Positions 45,935 through 56,834 of a stretch of 64,000 bases of DNA are shown one piece after another. The first letter of the stretch is position 1. Every line of letters begins with the position of its first letter. Under the pieces are notes generated by a model. It saw only the letters and a program-made list of their open reading frames with translations, was not told where the DNA came from and searched no databases. Location: contig NZ_JAUSXB010000001.1 in NCBI RefSeq assembly GCF_030823375.1, forward strand, positions 1,302,001-1,366,000, in the 5' to 3' direction. This DNA comes from Pseudarthrobacter siccitolerans. Its GTDB lineage: Bacteria; Actinomycetota; Actinomycetes; Actinomycetales; Micrococcaceae. Made by a program: the position numbers and the translations under genes.

Positions 45935-47479
45935 GTGAAACTTTCAGAGCGCATCAGCGCCGCCCAAGCCAAAACCCAGCCTGCATCCGCTAAGGCGTCG
46001 GCGCCTGCGCTCCCTCAGCCTCGCCCCGAAATCCCCACCCAGCGCGTGCAGTGGTTGGAACAGCCCCCCGGACAAGCGACGACGACGGCGGTACCGCCTG
46101 CCGCCGCCGTCGTTCCTGCCCACGCACATCCGGAAGAGACGCGGTCAAAACCTCTACAGCCCGTGGACGTTTTCGCCGCGCTCAAGGAAAGGGCCGCCAC
46201 CGCGCTGTTCGTGCGCCTGGGTGCGCGATTCAACGACTCCGGGATCACCGAGCACGAGCTGAAAACCTCGGCGCGGGAAGAACTGACCCGCATCATCGAT
46301 GCCGAGCAGGTTCCGCTGTCCGCGGAGGAGCGGACGCGCCTTGTCCAGGACGTCGCCGACGACGTCCTCGGCTACGGTCCGCTGCAGCGGCTGCTGGATG
46401 ACCCCGCCGTTACGGAAATCATGGTCAACCGCATGGACCAGATCTACGTCGAACGGAAAGGCCACCTCACACTCGCGGACTCGCGCTTCAGCTCCGAGGA
46501 GCACCTACGCAAGGTCATTGAACGCATTGTGTCCAAGGTGGGCCGCCGCATTGACGAGTCCTCCCCCTTGGTGGATGCGCGCCTCGAAGACGGTTCGCGT
46601 GTCAACGCCGTCATTCCGCCGCTCGCGGTGGGCGGCTCATCGCTGACCATCCGAAAGTTCAGCAAGACTCCGCTGACGGTGCGGAACCTGATCGATTTCG
46701 GAACCTTGACGCCGGAGATGGCCGAGCTGCTTAATGCCTGCGTCAAAGCCAAACTCAACATCATCGTGTCCGGCGGTACGGGCACCGGCAAGACCACACT
46801 CCTCAATGTGCTGTCCTCCTTCCTGCCCTCGGACGAACGAATCGTCACCATCGAGGACGCAGTGGAACTCCAAATCCAGCAGGACCACGTGGTCCGGCTG
46901 GAAAGCCGTCCCCCTAACACCGAGGGCAAAGGTGAGGTCACCATCCGCGAACTCCTTAGGAACTCACTGCGTATGCGCCCCGACCGCATTGTTGTCGGCG
47001 AAGTCCGTGGCGGCGAATCCCTGGACATGCTCCAAGCCATGAACACCGGCCACGACGGTTCCCTCTCCACGGTCCACTCCAACTCTCCGCGAGACGCTGT
47101 TGCCCGCCTGGAGACGCTGGTACTCATGGCTGGGATGGACTTGCCGCTGCGTGCCATCCGGGAGCAGATCGCCTCCGCAGTGAACCTGATTGTCCAGATC
47201 TCGCGCCTGCGTGACGGTTCCCGGCGGATCACACACGTCACTGAGGTCCAAGGCATGGAAGGGGACATTGTCACCCTCCAGGACGCCTTCGTCTTCGACT
47301 ACTCCGCGGGCGTTGACCAACACGGGCGCTTCCTCGGCAAGCCAGTGGCCACCGGCATCCGCCCACGATTCATCGACCGGTTCGAGGACCTCGGGATTCA
47401 TGTGTCGCCAGCCGTTTTCGCCACCTCGGCCGGCCCGGGTACGGCTGCGACGAGCACAACTCGCACCGGAAAGGCCTAG
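45935..47479 (+). CDS. tadA: TadA/CpaF secretion ATPase, locus 2
   Basis: A 514-residue paralogue of the locus 1 ATPase. A Pro/Ala-rich N-terminal region of about 75 residues precedes the N-domain (VPLSAEERTRLVQDV, VTEIMVNRMDQIYVE). Walker [11 protein letters not shown] lies at 279-288, Walker B at [14 protein letters not shown], His box STVHSNSPRDA. The C-terminus is extended by an Ala/Thr-rich tail absent from locus 1. GTG start directly after the cpaE2 stop. Confidence 0.93.
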   Translation: MKLSERISAAQAKTQPASAKASAPALPQPRPEIPTQRVQWLEQPPGQATTTAVPPAAAVVPAHAHPEETRSKPLQPVDVFAALKERAATALFVRLGARFNDSGITEHELKTSAREELTRIIDAEQVPLSAEERTRLVQDVADDVLGYGPLQRLLDDPAVTEIMVNRMDQIYVERKGHLTLADSRFSSEEHLRKVIERIVSKVGRRIDESSPLVDARLEDGSRVNAVIPPLAVGGSSLTIRKFSKTPLTVRNLIDFGTLTPEMAELLNACVKAKLNIIVSGGTGTGKTTLLNVLSSFLPSDERIVTIEDAVELQIQQDHVVRLESRPPNTEGKGEVTIRELLRNSLRMRPDRIVVGEVRGGESLDMLQAMNTGHDGSLSTVHSNSPRDAVARLETLVLMAGMDLPLRAIREQIASAVNLIVQISRLRDGSRRITHVTEVQGMEGDIVTLQDAFVFDYSAGVDQHGRFLGKPVATGIRPRFIDRFEDLGIHVSPAVFATSAGPGTAATSTTRTGKA

Positions 47480-47483
47480 GACA

Positions 47484-48416
47484 GTGCTGATCATTCTTGG
47501 AGCCGCGTTACTGTTCCTCGCCCCCATCATGCTGGGCGTGGCGCTGGTACTGCCACGCACTCCCGAAATTGCCCTGGACCGGCGCCGCCCCTACGAGGCG
47601 GACCCGCCGTCGCGCCTTACCCGTCTCGCAGATGCCACGGTGGGTGGCCTGGGACGATTCCTGGGCAGCAGGAACGTCCGTCTCTACAACCGCGAAGCTT
47701 TGGAAAATGCAGGACTCCGGCTGAGCCAGACTGAATACATGGTGCTGGTCATCGCCGGCGCCACCGTGGGCGCATTGGTGGGGCTGGTGATCGGAATTCC
47801 TGCGATCTCCGTCCTGCTGGTTGTCCTGGCGCCGTTCGTGGGCCACCTGGTGCTCGGATTCCTGGCAAGCAAGCGGCGCTCAAAGTTCGATGAACAACTG
47901 GGCGACACCCTCCAGCTGCTCTCCGGCGGCCTGCGGGCAGGCCACAGCATCCTTCGGGCCATCGATGCGGCGGCCGCTGAATCCCAGAGCCCCACGTCGG
48001 AGGAGATGCGACGCGTCATCACCGAGACGAGCCTTGGCCGTGACTTGCTCGCCTCATTGACTGACACCTCTGAGCGCATGCGGAACGAAGACTTCGTTTG
48101 GATAGCCCAGGCCATCCAGATCAACCGTGAAGTGGGCGGCAACCTGGCGGAGGTGCTGGACCAAGTGAACGAGACCATCCGTGAGCGTTCCGAAATCAAG
48201 GGGCACATCAAGTCCCTTGCCGCAGAGGGGAAATTCTCGGCGTACATCCTCATCGCCATGCCCTTCGGCATCGTGCTGATGCTGATGACTGTGAATCCCG
48301 GGTACATGAATTCGATGTTCACGCACCCGCTCGGTTGGGGCATGATTGGTGCGTCGGTTGTGCTGATGACGATTGGCAGCCTGTGGATGCGCAAAATCAT
48401 TGATCTGAAGTTCTGA
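47484..48416 (+). CDS. tadB: TadB-like platform protein, locus 2
   Basis: A 310-residue GspF-type membrane protein: N-terminal helix (LIILGAALLFLAPIMLGVALVL), helix pair near 85-125, F domain (KFDEQLGDTLQLLSGGLRAGHSILRAIDAAA, REVGGNLAEVLDQVNETIRER) and two C-terminal helices. GTG 47484 follows tadA2 by four bases; the frame is open far upstream inside tadA2, but that part is not homologous. The F domain is very close to the locus 1 TadB. Confidence 0.88.
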   Translation: MLIILGAALLFLAPIMLGVALVLPRTPEIALDRRRPYEADPPSRLTRLADATVGGLGRFLGSRNVRLYNREALENAGLRLSQTEYMVLVIAGATVGALVGLVIGIPAISVLLVVLAPFVGHLVLGFLASKRRSKFDEQLGDTLQLLSGGLRAGHSILRAIDAAAAESQSPTSEEMRRVITETSLGRDLLASLTDTSERMRNEDFVWIAQAIQINREVGGNLAEVLDQVNETIRERSEIKGHIKSLAAEGKFSAYILIAMPFGIVLMLMTVNPGYMNSMFTHPLGWGMIGASVVLMTIGSLWMRKIIDLKF

Positions 48417-48423
48417 GCCCGTC

Positions 48424-49308
48424 ATGAGCCCTCTGATAATTTCCTCGCTCCTGCTGGTTTCGGTTCCCGTTGGCGTCCTTGCCTGGTCCATCCTGTCCGT
48501 CGACCGGAAGGCGAGGACTGCCACCGTCGCCATCCTCACCCGAGGGCGCCAAACTGCCGAAGCACCAGAGAAACAATCCCGGGGCTTCCTGGCAAGGCTC
48601 GGTCACCGCCTGACTCCCCCTGCCTATGTCCGCAAGCTCGATCGCTTGCTGTCCCTCGCCGGCAGGCCGCTGTCCATGCCCCTCGAAAAGGTTCTCGGCG
48701 CCAAGATAGCCCTCGGCGTGGCCGGCGCGTCCCTCGGCCTCTACCTGAGTGCCGTCGGCGGTACGCCCATCATGAAACTGGCCGGGCTGTTCCTGCTGTT
48801 CCTGGGATACTTCATCCCGGACCTCCTGCTGTACAGCAAAGGCAAGGAGCGCCAGAAGGCCATGCAGCTGGAACTGGCCAATACCTTGGACCAGATGCTG
48901 ATTTCCGTGGAGGCCGGCCTTGGCTTCGAGGGCGCCATGGCCCGTGCCGGGGAAAACGGCAAGGGACCACTCGCAGAGGAACTGGTCCGTACCCTGCAGG
49001 ACATGCAGGTGGGCCGAAGCCGCCGGGAATCGTACCAGGCTCTCGCCGAGCGGACCAGCATCCCGGAGCTGAGGAGCTTTGTCCAGGCGGTGATCCAAGC
49101 AGACACCTACGGTATTGCCATCAGCCGGGTACTGCGGATCCAGGCAAAGGTCATGAGGGTAAAACGCCGCCAGCGCGCCGAGGAAAAAGCCATGAAACTT
49201 CCGGTGATGATCCTGTTTCCGCTGCTCTTCTTCATTTTCCCGGTCCTCTTCATCGCCATTCTCGGTCCCGCTGTTATCAACACCGTTGTCACGTTCAGCG
49301 GGCAGTAA
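48424..49308 (+). CDS. tadC: TadC-like platform protein, locus 2
   Basis: A 294-residue platform protein: N-terminal helix (SSLLLVSVPVGVLAWSIL), helix pair near 90-135, F domain (LANTLDQMLISVEAGLGFEGAMARAGEN, IQADTYGIAISRVLRIQAKVMR) and a final hydrophobic helix (LPVMILFPLLFFIFPVLFIAILG). ATG 48424 lies seven bases after tadB2. Unlike locus 1, no pilin gene follows. Confidence 0.88.
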   Translation: MSPLIISSLLLVSVPVGVLAWSILSVDRKARTATVAILTRGRQTAEAPEKQSRGFLARLGHRLTPPAYVRKLDRLLSLAGRPLSMPLEKVLGAKIALGVAGASLGLYLSAVGGTPIMKLAGLFLLFLGYFIPDLLLYSKGKERQKAMQLELANTLDQMLISVEAGLGFEGAMARAGENGKGPLAEELVRTLQDMQVGRSRRESYQALAERTSIPELRSFVQAVIQADTYGIAISRVLRIQAKVMRVKRRQRAEEKAMKLPVMILFPLLFFIFPVLFIAILGPAVINTVVTFSGQ

Positions 49309-49889: not shown

Positions 49890-50681
49890 TCAGCTCTGTT
49901 GGTCCGCCCGTTTCGGCGCCAGCCGGTAACCTACGCCGCGCACAGTTTGTAGCCATCGCGGAGATTGTGGATCCTCCTGGAGTTTACGGCGGAGGTTTCC
50001 GATGTGCACTTCCACGGCCCGTTCGTCGGCCTCACTGATATAGGCATCTGCCTCGTAGAGGTCCCCCCGGACCGCGCGCACGAGGTGGGATCTGGTACAA
50101 ACGGCCCCCGCCCCTTTCAAGAGTGTGTGGAGCAGGTCAAATTCGCTGCGGGTGAGACCGAGGTTTTCACCGTCCATGGTTACGGTTCGGGTCCGAGGAT
50201 TCAGGGCGAGTCCGTTGTGGCGCAGCACGCCTGTATCCGCCAGTTGCGCCGGTGCAGCAGGCGGCGCTGCCCACGCGGCCGGCGCAAGGGCCTGCTGGCC
50301 TTGGATCTCGTGCCGAGGCCTGCGCAGCATGGCCGCGACCCTTGCCCGGAGCTCACGCGGCCGGAAGGGTTTGGCGATGTAATCATCCGCCCCGGCGTTC
50401 AAAGCGGACAGCAGGTCCGGCTCTTCAGTCCGGCCGGTCAGCATCACCACGTAAGCGTCACTGAAACCGCGGATCCGCCTGAGCACTTCAAACCCGTCAA
50501 TATCCGGAAGGCCGATGTCCAGCGTGACCACGCTGGCCTGCCGGTGGCGCACTACTTCGACGCCCTCCCTTCCATCCGCAGCGGTGTGGACCTCGAAACC
50601 AGCCTGGGTCAGGACCCCTTCTAAAAGATTCCTGATGTCAACGTCATCTTCGATTACTACTGCTACGCCAAGATCATCCAT
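49890..50681 (-). CDS. OmpR-family response regulator
   Basis: A 263-residue DNA-binding response regulator. The receiver domain (about 1-118) shows E11-D12-D13, phosphoacceptor D55 in TLDIGLPD, T82 and K104 in IAKPFRP. A Pro/Ala-rich linker (about 125-148) leads to a winged-helix domain with LTRSEFDLLHTLL, VEVHIGNLRRKL and TVRGVGYRL. It diverges from the sensor kinase across about 257 bases and is its probable partner. Targets are not deducible; the Tad loci and fibre operon on either side are natural candidates. Confidence 0.92.
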   Translation of the reverse strand: MDDLGVAVVIEDDVDIRNLLEGVLTQAGFEVHTAADGREGVEVVRHRQASVVTLDIGLPDIDGFEVLRRIRGFSDAYVVMLTGRTEEPDLLSALNAGADDYIAKPFRPRELRARVAAMLRRPRHEIQGQQALAPAAWAAPPAAPAQLADTGVLRHNGLALNPRTRTVTMDGENLGLTRSEFDLLHTLLKGAGAVCTRSHLVRAVRGDLYEADAYISEADERAVEVHIGNLRRKLQEDPQSPRWLQTVRGVGYRLAPKRADQQS

Positions 50682-50938
50682 TCGCCATCCCCAACGCCAG
50701 GCAGATATGGCCCCCCATCAGCCCAGCGCCAATGCCATACCCGCTCCAACTCTTTATACGCTACAAGTAAGCAGGGCCGATGACACCTGTTTCAACATTG
50801 CATTTGAAAAGTCAATTATTATGACAGAACATGTGGATTACCAACCGGAGAGGATGTGTGCCAGGTTGCCCCATAGGAATTCGGACGCATCTGCGCCGGA
50901 AATTCGACTCATGGCCCCCTATGGCCAGGGCAGGATTC

Positions 50939-52606
50939 ATGGCTGAGCGCCTATTTCCCCGCGGATCCGCAAGGGTCTTCCAGCGGCTCGGGCCGCGTTC
51001 GCAGGTGGCCCTGTGCCAGCTGCCCCTCACCCTGATCGTGGCTGCGCTCGCCGTTGCCACCCCCTTTGCATGGCCCACGCTGCTGCACAGCCCCCTGTAT
51101 CTGGCCGGAATTATCCTTTCCGGTGCGCTCTTCCTCGGTTGTCTGTTGGTCCCGTGGGAACGGCTTGCGCACCGCCCCTACCTGCTGATTCCCATCCTGG
51201 ACTTTGTCTCCATCGGGCTGCTTCGGAACGGCGCCGCTCCCCTGCTCCCGGGCCTGGCCGTCCTCGCCGTATTCCCGGTCATCTGGCTTTCCGCCTCCGG
51301 GATGCTCACCCGCAGCAGCCTTGTGCTCAGCTTCTTCGGCCCCATGTTCATCATGGTTCCCACGCTCGCCGGCCGCTTCCCCAACCTCACGGCCGCGGAC
51401 ATCACCAGCACGTTCCTCTTTCCCCTCATGACGCTCGCGGTGTCCCTCGCCATCAGGTTCGCGAGTGCGCACGTCCGGCTGCAGCAGCGTGAGCTGGCGG
51501 AGAAGGACAGGGAACTCCGCGAGCTGCTGCGCGAGAGCAGGGAGCGGGAAAAGCTGCTGGAGACGGTTCTGGACGCCACCGACGTCGGAATAGCCGCCGT
51601 CGACAGGTCCGGCCACTTCCTGGTGTCCAACAGCCGGCAGCGGAACTTCCGCCAGGCCACTCACGCCGACGACGCGGTCCCCGGGCAGGGGCACCAGCTG
51701 ATCTTCGGCCAGGACAGGCGGACCCTGCTGCCTCCGGAAAAGCGGCCTATCAGCCGGGCCATCGCCGGGGAGTCCTTCGCGGACTATCTGGTGTGGGCCG
51801 GGGAGGGAGCTGACCAGCGGGCGGTGACTACCGCCGCCCGTCCACTGGTGGGTGAGGACGGCCAGCTGACAGGCGCCGTGGTTGTTTACAGCGACGTGAC
51901 CGGCTGGGTGGAGGCGCTGGCGGCCAACCAGGAGCTGGTTTCCAACGTGACCCACGAGTTCAAGACGCCGTTGAACTCCATCATCGGCAATGTGGACCTG
52001 GTGCTCGACGAGGTTGCCGCCTTACCGCCGCAGATAGCCCAGCGCCTCCTGGTAGTCGAGCGGAATGCCGAGCGGCTGCTGGCCCTGGTAGCCGACCTGT
52101 CGGCTTCGGCGTCGGCAGCGCTCAACGTCCATCCCAAGCGGACGGACCTGGCGAGTCTGGTGGAAACCAGCATCGGCTCCGCCCAGGCACAGGCCGAGCT
52201 GGCGAATATCCACCTTTCAGCGGACGTTCCCTCGCCTCTGTGGGCTTACGCGGACCCGCTCCGGATCGGCCAGGCGCTGGACAACCTGGTATCAAACGCC
52301 ATCAAGTATTCGCCCGACGGCGGCAACGTCAGCATCAGCGCCCGCAGCACCGATAAGTGGGTGCAGCTCACCGTCAGCGACACCGGAATGGGCATCAGCA
52401 GTGAGGACAGGGACAGGATCTTCAAGCGCTTCTTCCGGACCGACGCCGCCCGGGACGCGGCCATCACCGGCGCCGGCCTGGGCCTGTCCATCACCAAGAT
52501 GATTGTGGAACGGCACGGCGGGCAAATATCCTGCGTGAGCAATCAAGGGGAAGGCAGCACATTCACTGTGACACTGCCCGCGGAAGGTCCTCCCCCAGCG
52601 TTCTAA
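50939..52606 (+). CDS. Membrane sensor histidine kinase with PAS-like domain
   Basis: A 555-residue kinase. Residues about 22-175 hold six or so hydrophobic helices with short loops (a membrane-embedded sensor). A charged coiled coil (about 180-208) leads to a PAS-like domain (ETVLDATDVGIAAVDRSGHFLVSN). The HisKA H-box NVTHEFKTPLNS carries H339, then N-box DNLVSNAIKYS, DTGMGISS and GLGLSITK of the ATPase. ATG 50939 has GGCAGGA upstream; in-frame ATGs exist at 50921 and 50831. The last 108 bases of the frame before 50939 do not look domain-like. Confidence 0.9.
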   Translation: MAERLFPRGSARVFQRLGPRSQVALCQLPLTLIVAALAVATPFAWPTLLHSPLYLAGIILSGALFLGCLLVPWERLAHRPYLLIPILDFVSIGLLRNGAAPLLPGLAVLAVFPVIWLSASGMLTRSSLVLSFFGPMFIMVPTLAGRFPNLTAADITSTFLFPLMTLAVSLAIRFASAHVRLQQRELAEKDRELRELLRESREREKLLETVLDATDVGIAAVDRSGHFLVSNSRQRNFRQATHADDAVPGQGHQLIFGQDRRTLLPPEKRPISRAIAGESFADYLVWAGEGADQRAVTTAARPLVGEDGQLTGAVVVYSDVTGWVEALAANQELVSNVTHEFKTPLNSIIGNVDLVLDEVAALPPQIAQRLLVVERNAERLLALVADLSASASAALNVHPKRTDLASLVETSIGSAQAQAELANIHLSADVPSPLWAYADPLRIGQALDNLVSNAIKYSPDGGNVSISARSTDKWVQLTVSDTGMGISSEDRDRIFKRFFRTDAARDAAITGAGLGLSITKMIVERHGGQISCVSNQGEGSTFTVTLPAEGPPPAF

Positions 52607-52768: not shown

Positions 52769-53308
52769 ATGAACAAAGCTACTAAAGGCGCCATCGCAGC
52801 AGGCGCAGCCGGCATCCTTCTCGCAGGCGGAGCAGGCACTTTCGCTCTCTGGTCAGACAGCCAGAACGTCAACGCCGGCACGGTTTCGACGGGTAAACTT
52901 GACCTCGCTGTAAACCCGAACGGCGTTTGGTCCGAGGACCTGGCGACGATCGTTCCCGGCGACAGCCTCACCTACACGACAGCGGTAACCGTTAGCGCGA
53001 CGGGCGACAATCTCACTGGGGAACTTGTAATCAGCAAGGCTTCTTTCGATACCGCTTTCGCAGGGCTGGGAAGCGATTACGTTAGTGCTACGGTCGCACA
53101 CAGTGCAGTTGACGGACCAGATCTCGTCGTGGACGACGTCAACACGAATCTCATGACGTTCACCGACAAAGGCGAAGAGCACACGTTCAACGTGACCATC
53201 ACAATTGAGTTTGATGCAGAGACTCCGCTGCAGGAAGACCAGAACCTGAACCTTCTTCTGCCGGCACTGGCCGTGACCCTGGACCAGAAGAGCCCAGCTG
53301 TAGTCTGA
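52769..53308 (+). CDS. TasA/camelysin-like secreted protein 1
   Basis: A 179-residue secreted protein, first gene of the fibre operon. The signal segment (AIAAGAAGILLAGGAGTFALW, to about residue 28) and the mature start WSDSQNVNAGTVSTGKLDLAVN follow the pattern of SipW-processed TasA/CalY-like proteins; the rest is beta-rich with TYTTAVTVSATGDNL and HTFNVTITIEFD. TasA relatives assemble into matrix fibres. ATG 52769 has CAGGGGGAC upstream. A 162-base gap after the kinase gene must hold the promoter. Confidence 0.75.
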   Translation: MNKATKGAIAAGAAGILLAGGAGTFALWSDSQNVNAGTVSTGKLDLAVNPNGVWSEDLATIVPGDSLTYTTAVTVSATGDNLTGELVISKASFDTAFAGLGSDYVSATVAHSAVDGPDLVVDDVNTNLMTFTDKGEEHTFNVTITIEFDAETPLQEDQNLNLLLPALAVTLDQKSPAVV

Positions 53309-53322
53309 TCTGAGCTATCACC

Positions 53323-53874
53323 ATGAAAAATAGACTGTGGCTGACTCTTGCTGGGGGGGTGGTGCTCGTCATGCTGAGCTCGATGAGCACCACCGGAGCC
53401 CTCTGGCATGACGAGGCCACAGTCGACGCTGGGACCGTTACCACCGGCAGCCTCGTGCTGCTGGTGGGCGGCCAGCCTGAAGTTTATTCGTTTGATGCCC
53501 TTAGTACCGGTAATCTCACCCCCGGCAGAACCGTCAGGGCTCCGCTGACTATCACCAACGGTGGAAGCACGGACATGACGTACGGTCTGAGGTCAGTTGT
53601 TGCGAGCGCAGTCAATCCTGCCGATCAGGTATTGGTCAGCGCATTACGGCTGGCCGTGACTGCAGACACTGTATGCGGGGAACTGCCGGCCGAAGATCCT
53701 TTCCTCGGTCCGGTTCCGCTTGATGAAACGGCGTCCTTCGCTGGCCGGAAGCTGGAGCCGTTGCAGGCCGAGACGCTTTGCATGGAAATCACTCTCGCCG
53801 CCGACGCTCCAATCGCCGCAGCCGCTGGCACCACCGCCGTGACCTTCACCTTCAGAGGGGACCAGACATCATGA
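53323..53874 (+). CDS. TasA/camelysin-like secreted protein 2
   Basis: A 183-residue secreted protein with the same signature: signal helix WLTLAGGVVLVMLSSMSTTG, mature start ALWHDEATVDAGTVTTGSLVLL, then beta-rich sequence with PLTITNGGSTDMTYGLR. Two cysteines (TVCGEL, TLCMEI) could form a disulfide. It lies 14 bases after protein 1 and overlaps the signal peptidase start by four bases, so both are coupled. No strong ribosome site before ATG 53323. Confidence 0.7.
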   Translation: MKNRLWLTLAGGVVLVMLSSMSTTGALWHDEATVDAGTVTTGSLVLLVGGQPEVYSFDALSTGNLTPGRTVRAPLTITNGGSTDMTYGLRSVVASAVNPADQVLVSALRLAVTADTVCGELPAEDPFLGPVPLDETASFAGRKLEPLQAETLCMEITLAADAPIAAAAGTTAVTFTFRGDQTS

Positions 53875-54464
53875 CCCGCGGGAAGCGCCGCTCCACCCCT
53901 GACGACACCAACTTGGGCTGGTGGGTCCGGCAGACCGCCTCATGGGTGCTTCTCCTGTCAGTGTTCGCACTGCTGACGGCGACCATCATTGTTCCCAAGG
54001 TTGCCGGCGCCACACCGTACACAGTGCTCACGGGTTCCATGCGGCCAGGGATGCCTCCCGGGAGCTTAGTGGTCACGCTCCCAGTGGAGCCCGGGCAGCT
54101 AAAGACGGGCGAGGCCATTACGTACCAACTCCGTTCGGGGGAACCGGGGGTGGTTACGCACCGCATCACCTCCGTCTCCACCACCTTCAAAGGCGAGCGG
54201 CTGTTCACCACCCAAGGGGACGCCAACCCGAGCCCGGACGACAAGCCGGTTAAGGCCGGCCAGATCCGCGGCGTCGTCTGGTACAGCCTGCCTCTGCTCG
54301 GCTACGTCAACGGCTGGCTAACTGGCGAACAGCACATCTGGGCGGTCGGCATCACGGTGGTTGGTTTACTCGGATATGCGGCATTCATGTACACCTCTGC
54401 GCTGATCGAGGCGCGGCGCCGCCGACGTCCGCATCCTGCCAACACCCTTACGGAGGCGTCGTGA
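53871..54464 (+). CDS. SipW-like signal peptidase I (Ser/His type)
   Basis: A 197-residue membrane protease predicted to remove the signal peptides of the neighbouring TasA-like proteins. It has two helices (about 22-42 and 155-176), catalytic S56 in LTGSMRPGMPPG and H97 in VVTHRIT; a His in place of the usual bacterial Lys marks the ER/SipW branch. ATG 53871 overlaps the preceding stop (ATGA); its stop overlaps the next GTG. A basic C-terminal tail (RRRRRP) faces the cytosol. Confidence 0.88.
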   Translation: MTRGKRRSTPDDTNLGWWVRQTASWVLLLSVFALLTATIIVPKVAGATPYTVLTGSMRPGMPPGSLVVTLPVEPGQLKTGEAITYQLRSGEPGVVTHRITSVSTTFKGERLFTTQGDANPSPDDKPVKAGQIRGVVWYSLPLLGYVNGWLTGEQHIWAVGITVVGLLGYAAFMYTSALIEARRRRRPHPANTLTEAS

Positions 54465-55153
54465 AAAGCCGCCAGCCAGGGCTGATCGTCACGGGATCTG
54501 TTTCCGCTTTGCTCCTCATGGCTTCGCCCGCCGCGGCAGCCGATGAGTTGCTGTTCAGTGCCGACGGCGAAACGTGGGGCCCGGCACTGAATCAACCAAT
54601 GTTTGAAGATACTGTCTTGGTTCCCGGTGACCAGGTCAGCCGGAGTTTCTGGGTCCGCAACGGCAGCGGCTACAACGCTGACCTCGCTGTGGGCATCGAC
54701 GGTGAGGTTCTTTCTCCAGCGGCCTCACCGGCATCCCTATGGGTCATTGCATCTGTTGGGGAGAGCTCCGCACGGGTGCCGGGCGCGAGCGGGGAAGACC
54801 GGCTGATCCTGGCGATGCCGGCCATGGGCGCGGCAGAAAGTCAAAAGATCACAATCACGGTCGGGCTCGGTGACCAGGCCGCGAACGTAATGCAGGAGCA
54901 GGCCATACCTGTGCAGTTTCGGGTCAACATGACTGAATCATCCTTGCAGGCCTCTCCTACCGGACCCGATGGTTCCGTTCGCCACACTGGCGGGGAGGGC
55001 CCCCAGCCTGGGGCACCTCTCGCAAACACCGGGCTTATCGGGTTATGGATTGCAACCCTCGGCGCCTCGCTCGTTGCAGGCGGCTGGCTTGCAGTGACGC
55101 GAAGCCGTTCACAAAAGATTATTAGCGAAGGAGTTCCGAATGGGACGGCGTAG
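54461..55153 (+). CDS. Secreted protein with LANTG wall-sorting-like C-terminus
   Basis: A 230-residue protein with a classical signal peptide (LIVTGSVSALLLMASPAAAA, cleavage near 26). The middle is beta-rich (VPGDQVSRSFWVRNGSG, ADLAVGIDGEVL). The C-terminus has LANTG (187-191), a hydrophobic helix (LIGLWIATLGASLVAGGWLAV) and basic residues RSRSQK. LAxTG is the motif of class E sortases in high-GC Gram-positives, so covalent wall anchoring is plausible; no sortase gene is in this window. GTG start overlaps the peptidase stop. Confidence 0.7.
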   Translation: MKSRQPGLIVTGSVSALLLMASPAAAADELLFSADGETWGPALNQPMFEDTVLVPGDQVSRSFWVRNGSGYNADLAVGIDGEVLSPAASPASLWVIASVGESSARVPGASGEDRLILAMPAMGAAESQKITITVGLGDQAANVMQEQAIPVQFRVNMTESSLQASPTGPDGSVRHTGGEGPQPGAPLANTGLIGLWIATLGASLVAGGWLAVTRSRSQKIISEGVPNGTA

Positions 55154-55763
55154 CGCAGCCTCACGGAAGGACACCTCCACCGAAAGGAGCGTGCGTCTTC
55201 GGGCGCTCCTGTCCGCCGGAATGGTCCTCGGGCTCGGAGCCGTGGGGACGCTGGCAGCGTGGACCGACGAATCGAAAGCAACTGCGACCTTCAGCGCGGG
55301 CACCCTTGACCTGAAGCTCAAGGAGTTGCCCGGTGGCACTTACGCGGACTCCGCAACCATCACCTCACTGAACATGACAGACATGTACCCAGGAGTGAGC
55401 AAGGCCGCCATGCTCCAAGTCTCCAATTCGGGCACGGTCCCGCTTTCCTACACGCTAACGGGCTCAGCCATGGCCGGACTTGTCGGCCAGGGCGGGGATC
55501 TCGGCGGAGCCCTGCTGGTCGGCGTCTATTCCGGCGGCTCTGCCAGCAACAACTCAGCGACGACAGGTTCATGCACTGGCACGCGAATCGGGACTGCAGA
55601 CGTTCCTCTCAACACTTCATTGATTGCCACTGCCCGAGCCCTTGCGCCCGCCGGAACCGAAGACCTCTGCCTGCTCGTCTCGTTGCCATTGAACGCCGCC
55701 ACAAACCTCCAGGGCACAAGCACGACGGCGACGTTCACATTCAACGCCAGCATGGGAAGCTGA
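55140..55763 (+). CDS. TasA/camelysin-like secreted protein 3
   Basis: A 207-residue protein with a basic N-terminus, signal helix RALLSAGMVLGLGAVGTLAAW (21-41) and mature start WTDESKATATFSAGTLDLKL, the same signature as proteins 1 and 2. The body has YPGVSKAAMLQVSNSGTVPLSYTLTG, as in camelysin domains. Two cysteines (GSCTGT, DLCLLV). ATG 55140 overlaps the LANTG protein gene by 14 bases; the signal peptidase fusion follows after three bases. Confidence 0.75.
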   Translation: MGRRSAASRKDTSTERSVRLRALLSAGMVLGLGAVGTLAAWTDESKATATFSAGTLDLKLKELPGGTYADSATITSLNMTDMYPGVSKAAMLQVSNSGTVPLSYTLTGSAMAGLVGQGGDLGGALLVGVYSGGSASNNSATTGSCTGTRIGTADVPLNTSLIATARALAPAGTEDLCLLVSLPLNAATNLQGTSTTATFTFNASMGS

Positions 55764-55766
55764 TCA

Positions 55767-56834
55767 ATGATGCGCAGGCTCTCACGCCTTCAGAACAATG
55801 TGCTGACACTCGGCGCCGTTCTCGGCGCCCTCTGTCTGGTCGTCGCCATCGCAGCGGTCCTCACCGGCGCAAAGCCGCTGGTCTTCCGTTCAGGGTCCAT
55901 GGCCCCGTCCATCCCGACAGGCGCATTAGGCATCAGTATCCCGGTAGAGGCCAAAAGCATCAGCATCGGTGATGTCATCAGCGTCGAGAACGCCGCCGGG
56001 GTCCGGATCACCCACAGGGTTGTCCAGGCCGACATCGCCGGGGAAACGGCAACGGTGAAGCTGAAAGGTGACGCAAATTCGGTCGCCGACGCAGCACCCT
56101 ACGTTCTCCACGAGACCGACCGGGTAGTGGCGCACTTTCCATTCCTGGGTTACGCCGTAGCCTGGCTCAGCAGTTCCGCGGCGGTATTTGCCGGCGGCCT
56201 TTTGACCGCCTACCTGCTCTACGTCGCTTTTGGCTCTTCACGACGCCGGGGTTGCAGTTCCCGTACGTCCCAGGTTGGGGTTAGTCCTTTGATCGGACAT
56301 CGTGTCGCTGAGCGCCGATCATTGAGGACCCGTCGTGCACAACGTCACGGCCGCCGTGCCACTAGGCTAACTGCCATGGCGCTGGCGTGCGTTGGCGTCC
56401 TCACGGGCGGGGCGATTCACACCGCCGCTCCCAGCCAGGCCGCATTCACTGATAATGCGACCGGAGCTGTCCAGTACAACGCGCGGTCGCTGGCCGCACC
56501 AACGTTTGCGTGCAAGCAAGCCATTGACGCTTTTCTTTTCGTGAATCTTGGCAAAATAGACCTGTCCTGGAACGACAACAACGGATCCCTTGAAGCAACG
56601 GGCTACAGGCTCTCCACGCAAATCGGAAACAGTACTGCAACCGAAGAAAGCGTCACAGCCGCTACCCGGACACGTACGGTAGCGGCCAGCGACATTAATT
56701 CGTCGGTTGCGACGACAGTCACCTTTACTCTTCATTCCTACTATCAGAACTGGGAGTCGGCGGCAACCGTTGCGGCAGACTACCGGCCGGCCGGGTTCCT
56801 GACTGCCGCCACTTTGCAGTGCTCAGCCGGGTAA
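55767..56834 (+). CDS. Signal peptidase I fused to a secreted FnIII-like domain
   Basis: A 355-residue fusion. Residues 1-155 are a second SipW-like signal peptidase: helix 13-33, S44 in RSGSMAPSIPTG, H83 in ITHRVV and a C-terminal helix near 130-155. Residues 160-200 are a long basic linker. Residues about 201-225 look like another signal segment (LTAMALACVGVLTGG, then PSQAAFTDNA), and the rest resembles a secreted FnIII-like domain (KIDLSWND, ATGYRLST, VTFTLHSYYQNW). No stop or frame break is seen across the junction. An internal ATG at 56376 could give the second half alone but lacks a ribosome site. Confidence 0.75.
   Translation: MMRRLSRLQNNVLTLGAVLGALCLVVAIAAVLTGAKPLVFRSGSMAPSIPTGALGISIPVEAKSISIGDVISVENAAGVRITHRVVQADIAGETATVKLKGDANSVADAAPYVLHETDRVVAHFPFLGYAVAWLSSSAAVFAGGLLTAYLLYVAFGSSRRRGCSSRTSQVGVSPLIGHRVAERRSLRTRRAQRHGRRATRLTAMALACVGVLTGGAIHTAAPSQAAFTDNATGAVQYNARSLAAPTFACKQAIDAFLFVNLGKIDLSWNDNNGSLEATGYRLSTQIGNSTATEESVTAATRTRTVAASDINSSVATTVTFTLHSYYQNWESAATVAADYRPAGFLTAATLQCSAG

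Follow-up and report, generated by a model that had tools for sequence, protein, structure and literature searches.

A gene of the soil bacterium Pseudarthrobacter siccitolerans joins a SipW-type signal peptidase, a SipW-type signal segment and an FnIII-like domain in one reading frame. It occupies positions 55767..56834 (355 amino acids) on the forward strand of the 64,000-nucleotide stretch analyzed here, which we call the window (contig NZ_JAUSXB010000001.1 of assembly GCF_030823375.1, positions 1,302,001 to 1,366,000). The fusion architecture is real and conserved. On balance, with a chance slightly better than even, we suggest that it represents a conserved protease-substrate precursor that crosses the membrane three times and from which the FnIII-like domain would be cut off to serve as a TapA-like starter or anchor of TasA-like fibers. 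The role as fiber starter or anchor is probable by analogy and is the least certain part of this proposal.

Architecture of the fused protein

The N-terminal half is a signal peptidase I of the endoplasmic reticulum (ER)/archaeal type. It matches TIGR02228 at 59.8 bits (curated cut-off 51.85) and has the catalytic fold of this type, and it falls below the cut-off of the Bacillus SipW equivalog NF046067 (46.6 vs 190 bits). Conservation was assessed in an alignment of 68 fusions hand-picked from 106, all 68 of which match TIGR02228 at E <=1. The catalytic serine S44 (55896..55898) and histidine H83 (56013..56015) form a predicted ER-type Ser-His pair present in 68/68 rows. Their SGSM and HRV motifs align with those of SEC11A and SEC11C of the human signal peptidase complex, which work in a complex and are not known to have a linked substrate. 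D102 and D108 (56070..56090), each in 68/68, are candidate acidic active-site residues.

The remaining parts were placed with AlphaFold2, using the second of two models (predicted local distance difference test, pLDDT, 83, good; the first reached a poor 55). The first transmembrane segment (TM1, residues 7-33, 55785..55865) coincides with a predicted helix, and the TM2 region (residues 127-158, 56145..56240) comprises helices 127-134 and 137-158. A basic, net positive linker without stop codon follows (residues 159-200, 56241..56366). It is predicted to be cytoplasmic, with low model confidence at residues 173-185 and a helical part at 190-200. The hydrophobic region of the second signal, TM3 (residues 201-219, 56367..56423), lies within helix 190-219 and leads to the predicted SipW-type cleavage site Q224 A225 / A226 F227 T228 D229 (56436..56453), with the cut after A225. 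The predicted released domain would begin with a flexible N-terminus (residues 226-245, 56442..56501; low pLDDT at 219-238), which by hhalign resembles the early mature parts of TasA-like proteins, and continue as an FnIII-like beta sandwich (residues 246-355, 56502..56831) with invariant C249, W329 and C352. The original prediction, made from the window's letters alone, had described a SipW-like peptidase with S44 and H83, a second signal-like segment before an FnIII-like domain and a frame unbroken across the linker, and it was right on each of these features.

Distribution of the fusion

A search with residues 190-355 only retrieved ten relatives besides the window's protein, 338-355 amino acids long and all fused. 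A wider profile search returned 638 proteins at E <=1e-8. Counting as fused any protein with >=90 residues beyond the peptidase, a tail is present in 106 of the 120 matches listed (window's own counted) and in none of the other 14. The protein search covered lengths near that of the query and scored the 7998 candidates that had the most words in common with it; short free peptidases are therefore under-listed, and 106/120 overstates the fused share. A scan of genome contigs gave 11 related loci, nine of them fused (two Arthrobacter, five Rhodococcus or Prescottella, one Nocardia, one Nocardioides) and two unfused, in Speluncibacter (L023) and Dietzia (L029). In the window's genus, a full-length, stop-free match occurs in 5/206 genomes, the window's included, and any match at 1e-15 in 66/206, mostly other SipW paralogues. 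Across the class, the peptidase profile matches at 1e-12 in 67/394 genomes, other SipW types included. No free-standing relative of the C-terminal half was found at E <=0.01 in a search limited to proteins that have exact words in common with it. The same architecture thus recurs in related genomes, where the original prediction had advised looking for it, and the relatives do not uniformly carry the two separate genes that it had named as grounds for rejecting a fusion.

A frameshift or assembly artefact was ruled out because other genomes carry the same uninterrupted frame. The GC content at third codon positions drops in the linker. A compensated frameshift there was rejected as well, given stops in the other two frames and a relative's linker that similarly loses the position pattern. 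A conserved internal start at M204, which the original prediction had raised as a possible objection, was also discarded, as Met stands there in 22/68 fusions only.

The Rhodococcus-type and Nocardia fusions (L024, L025, L026, L027, L028 and L031) have a far longer C-terminal half with a Thr/Pro-rich stretch, which in L026 is Glu/Pro-rich instead. By eye, a short similar-looking end segment follows the stretch in all six but L028.

The second signal and its cleavage site

The last 15 residues before TM3 are net positive in 66/68 fusions. Around the predicted site, A225 is conserved in 67/68, D229 in 60/68 and P245 in 66/68, and residue 227 is Phe in 63 and Trp in five of the 68. In PMC10269814, SipW is described as cutting TasA, which has Phe at P2', and an aromatic P2' is given for none of 143 verified LepB substrates, which sets TasA apart. 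A scripted count finds AxA-like sites that have an aromatic P2' in 104/106 fusion segments, compared with 17/93 N-terminal and 62/339 internal hydrophobic control segments. With an acidic P4' added, the counts are 94 fusion segments, one N-terminal and two internal controls. Any AxA-like site within a segment was scored, in fusions and controls alike, and the controls were drawn from a 400-kb part of the window's genome with 231 predicted genes. Two fusions (P0012 and P0067) do not pass the count, and they are accounted for by one misplaced segment and one truncated protein. The 106 fusions are interrelated and not independent, and they were therefore collapsed to 30 clusters below 40% identity. 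The aromatic P2' site is found in 30/30 clusters by script and in 29/30 by eye, as P0081 passes the script on a wrongly placed segment; aromatic P2' together with acidic P4' is found in 23/30. That the protease carries a likely substrate, as the original prediction proposed, is well supported by the SipW-type site predicted in the second signal.

Signals of TasA-like proteins from the window and the 11 related loci were used to train profiles. One of 36 segments was mis-anchored and dropped, and the third TasA-like protein of L028 gave none. These segments were anchored on the aromatic residue, and their own aromatic P2' proves nothing; an acidic P4' occurs in 23/36. With a profile hidden Markov model (HMM) of all TasA-like signals, 44/106 fusion segments score higher than every one of the 432 controls, and 75 score higher than 95% of the controls. 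A profile from TasA-like protein 3 alone places 36/106 above all 432 and 83 above 95%. These HMMs on length-matched segments replaced an ungapped position matrix, with which 3/78 controls scored as high as the window's segment (all substrates) or 18/78 (TasA-like protein 3 alone). In local profile-profile comparison with the TasA-like signals (hhalign), all fusions together reach E 3.6e-6 (probability 87) and Arthrobacter-sized fusions E 8e-4 (probability 24), and three control sets give E 0.38-0.57.

The exported domain

In the structural model the C-terminal domain adopts the FnIII fold, and the fold matches listed are FnIII; TapA is absent among them. The Pfam fn3 profile has no match at E <=1 in the fusion protein or in its C-terminal half. 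The domain contains exactly two cysteines in 68/68 fusions, one in the first and one in the last strand, and a C249-C352 disulfide is probable. Comparison with relative L062 gives 24/12/71 differences at codon positions 1/2/3 over the 155 codons of the protease half and 56/50/62 over 98 codons of the FnIII half. Judged by this codon pattern, the protease half is under strong constraint. Fast change in the exported half is as expected for a surface-exposed part or one co-varying with a partner.

Two-gene counterparts and the peptidase tree

In Speluncibacter and Dietzia, the partner gene's ATG lies 8 bases before the end of the peptidase gene, in another frame, and the partner proteins have a signal-like N-terminus of their own. 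Stripped of its Thr/Pro-rich part, the Speluncibacter partner matches 7/109 fused tails at E <=1e-3, the best at 2e-17 and collinear over most of the partner's length; with that part included the count rises to an inflated 17/109. The Dietzia partner matches 2/109 (3e-10 and 5e-10). After removal of the signal region, six and one tail matches remain, respectively. Since the overlapping-gene partners match fused tails, the two halves correspond to a gene pair that has been retained, with overlapping ends, in some lineages. The adjacent two-gene state thereby reveals what is joined in the fusion. Neither this state nor the operon context described below had been seen in the original prediction, whose interpretation stands in part, namely for the carried substrate.

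A quick tree without bootstrap was built from 138 peptidase domains (66 fused, 71 unfused and one, L081, uncounted). Rows labelled split have <90 residues after the peptidase, and no partner gene is implied. Some long rows are unsure (among them L060, L089, L048, L047 and L044), and L010 was labelled split by hand because its extension has no signal-like helix. The state changes about 11 times on the tree, at least five of these changes being forced by well-supported branches, with fusion and fission not told apart by the tree alone. The branch of the fused peptidase (SipW2) and its nearest kin is 57/75 fused, and the branch with the window's second peptidase (SipW1) is unfused in 26/26.

Other SipW fusions were also encountered. 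A third SipW branch is fused to an unrelated secreted protein in L052, L054, L057 and L069, and in L051, L053 and L055 the same partner has a gene of its own that immediately follows the peptidase gene, the start and stop codons overlapping. Fused and separate partners are similar down to E 1e-28, and by eye their signal shows no aromatic P2' site. In the window's genus, L004, L067 and L086 carry a further type of SipW fusion, in which the exported domain is another one; there TEASWQRSNPAPA follows the helix, with an aromatic P2' by eye.

Gene cluster around the fusion

The fusion is the last gene in a run of overlapping or nearly touching forward-strand genes, which constitutes a predicted operon. 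The run holds TasA-like protein 1 (52769..53308; TIGR04089 and TIGR04088), TasA-like protein 2 (53323..53874; a weak TIGR04089 match of 20.3 bits vs a cut-off of 60), the unfused SipW1 (53871..54464; TIGR02228 77.8 bits for the scored stretch 53865-54464, start set by eye), a secreted protein with a LANTG-like C-terminus and possible wall anchor (54461..55153, motif by eye) and TasA-like protein 3 (55140..55763; TIGR04088) directly upstream of the fusion. All 11 related loci have TasA-like protein 3 immediately before SipW2, and all 11 contain an unfused SipW1. TasA-like protein 2 is found in 10/11, being absent from L030, and the LANTG-like gene is found at this place in 3/11 (L022, L027 and L030). 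Without regard to the LANTG-like gene, 8/11 loci preserve the complete gene order; L026 and L031 are rearranged and L030 is without TasA-like protein 2.

The cluster contains two different SipW-type peptidases (53871-54464 and 55767-56834). Judged by eye, the 54461-55153 protein ends like a sortase sorting signal, in a LANTG-like motif, a hydrophobic stretch and a basic tail. A response regulator (49890-50681, reverse strand) and a sensor histidine kinase (50831-52606, forward strand), also recognized by eye, stand back to back before the cluster and might control it. TadB/TadC-like membrane proteins of a Tad-type pilus are encoded at 47190-49308 (by eye), which places them a few kilobases before the first TasA-like gene.

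Comparison with known systems

The SipW of Bacillus subtilis and B. cereus, peptidase of TasA, TapA and CalY, shares with the fusion the ER-type Ser-His pair, the TIGR02228 family and a gene neighborhood with TasA-like proteins. The fusion differs in running on into a substrate-like domain and in having a second, unfused SipW in its cluster. TapA is likewise a beta sandwich with a cysteine pair and a flexible N-terminus after the signal. PMC10151520 describes an Ig fold with a C92-C188 disulfide, a low abundance similar to that of SipW, and a flexible N-terminus that shares homology with the TasA N-terminus and is donated to start the filament; tapA adjoins sipW there, its stop codon overlapping the sipW start. 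TapA, however, is a V-set Ig protein encoded separately before sipW, whereas the present domain is FnIII-like and fused behind the protease. Compared by description, CapP of B. cereus is also a secreted assembly factor, encoded by a separate gene transcribed on its own; it controls TasA-CalY fiber assembly and is reportedly processed by SipW (PMC13082335). The exported proteins of TIGR04088 and TIGR04089 (TasA, camelysin) resemble the fused half in the aromatic P2' and early mature sequence, but the fused half has an FnIII-like body and is as a rule not recognized by these models. The component families are known; no description of a SipW-substrate fusion was found among the titles and abstract openings listed, and as far as this literature goes the architecture is undescribed. 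Where these proteins are named in databases, they are called signal peptidase or hypothetical protein, and the second half is therefore easily overlooked.

Proposed mechanism and alternatives

The orientation of membrane segments is predicted from the positive-inside rule. By this rule, TM1 would put the protease outside, TM2 would return the chain, and the basic linker would stay inside. TM3 would then expose the cleavage site on the outside, on the same side as the active site, and this three-pass topology fits the protease-substrate reading. The cut after A225 would be made by a SipW active site, which may belong to the same molecule (in cis), to another copy of the protein or to SipW1. The cut would free the FnIII-like domain, which is produced in a 1:1 ratio with the protease and right next to it. 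By analogy with TapA, the freed domain would probably start, cap or anchor TasA-like fibers where subunits are released. A TapA-like starter or anchor that comes in equal number with the protease is favored because TapA shares the general plan. The relation is one of analogy and not of membership, given the V-set Ig fold of TapA and the lack of a sequence match to it at E <=0.1. In a more specific version, which we regard as possible though well short of likely, the fusion is a self-processing start site: the cut occurs in cis, and the freed domain offers an N-terminal strand to TasA-like subunits released by the same enzyme and SipW1.

Several observations weigh against the proposed precursor and its role. 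Co-transcription is a prediction, and a scan for promoters and terminators found sites no more often than in shuffled sequences. With the two profile HMMs, the window's own segment reaches 3.0 and 4.8 bits, and 3 and 4 of the 432 controls score as high. The profile of its 15-member clade compares with the TasA-like signals at E 0.0046 (probability 7.5). TIGR04088, a model of the SipW-dependent signal, has no match in the window's fusion protein at E <=1 and matches 2/68 fusions at this threshold. No sequence match to TapA appears at E <=0.1, and the fold is FnIII-like as opposed to V-set Ig. The exported half diverges fast except for the cysteines, the tryptophan and the cleavage site. With a full-length fusion in just 5/206 genomes, the gene is an accessory trait in the genus. 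For cutting in cis, the placement of the domains relative to each other is uncertain (predicted template modeling score, pTM, 0.49).

The C-terminal domain might instead never be cut, with TM3 as an anchor and the FnIII-like domain as a docking platform for subunits or wall partners near the protease. The fusion would then be a permanent tether, and TM3 forms a full helix in the model. We consider this unlikely: A225 (67/68) and the Phe or Trp at 227 (68/68) are among the best conserved C-terminal features, which would be odd for an uncut site, the stretch around it is predicted to be flexible, and separate-gene partners have their own signal-like N-terminus. Slightly less probable still is that a small indel fused or separated two overlapping neighbor genes, the exported half being an ordinary substrate of any SipW and the linkage only fixing a 1:1 ratio. 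The Speluncibacter and Dietzia genes, which overlap by 8 bases and whose non-repetitive parts match fused tails, the third SipW branch, which alternates between fused and separate states with an unrelated partner, and SipW1 in 11/11 related loci all agree with such an origin. The fusion is nevertheless widespread in the SipW2 branch, where the exported half remains associated with this type of protease, and the contrast with the wholly unfused SipW1 branch suggests more than convenience.

A third alternative is that the main role of the C-terminal domain is to regulate or direct the protease, comparable to the second role that B. subtilis SipW is said to have in surface-attached biofilm. That SipW is reportedly bifunctional (Terra 2012, as cited in other papers). 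The domain is predicted to lie outside, behind the third helix and the cleavage site, and it varies far more than the protease, unlike a conserved regulator, which makes such a role very improbable. Two separate proteins made through an internal start, or a frame created by sequencing error, are scarcely credible. An in-frame ATG exists at 56376; a start there would drop the basic residues before the helix, its poor conservation was noted above, and the uninterrupted frame recurs in genomes of the genus and in many other proteins. The protease-substrate precursor thus remains our preferred reading.

Implications

A signal peptidase and its substrate normally come together in trans. A peptidase fused to a domain whose cleavage site fits its own specificity class would be a natural single-chain system for studying substrate recognition by ER-type enzymes and their possible cutting in cis. 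The finding points to an actinobacterial TasA-type fiber system with a built-in candidate starter, and how fibers start and are anchored outside Bacillus becomes testable. If self-processing in cis were true, protease, starter and growing fiber would form one membrane-localized machine in actinobacteria.
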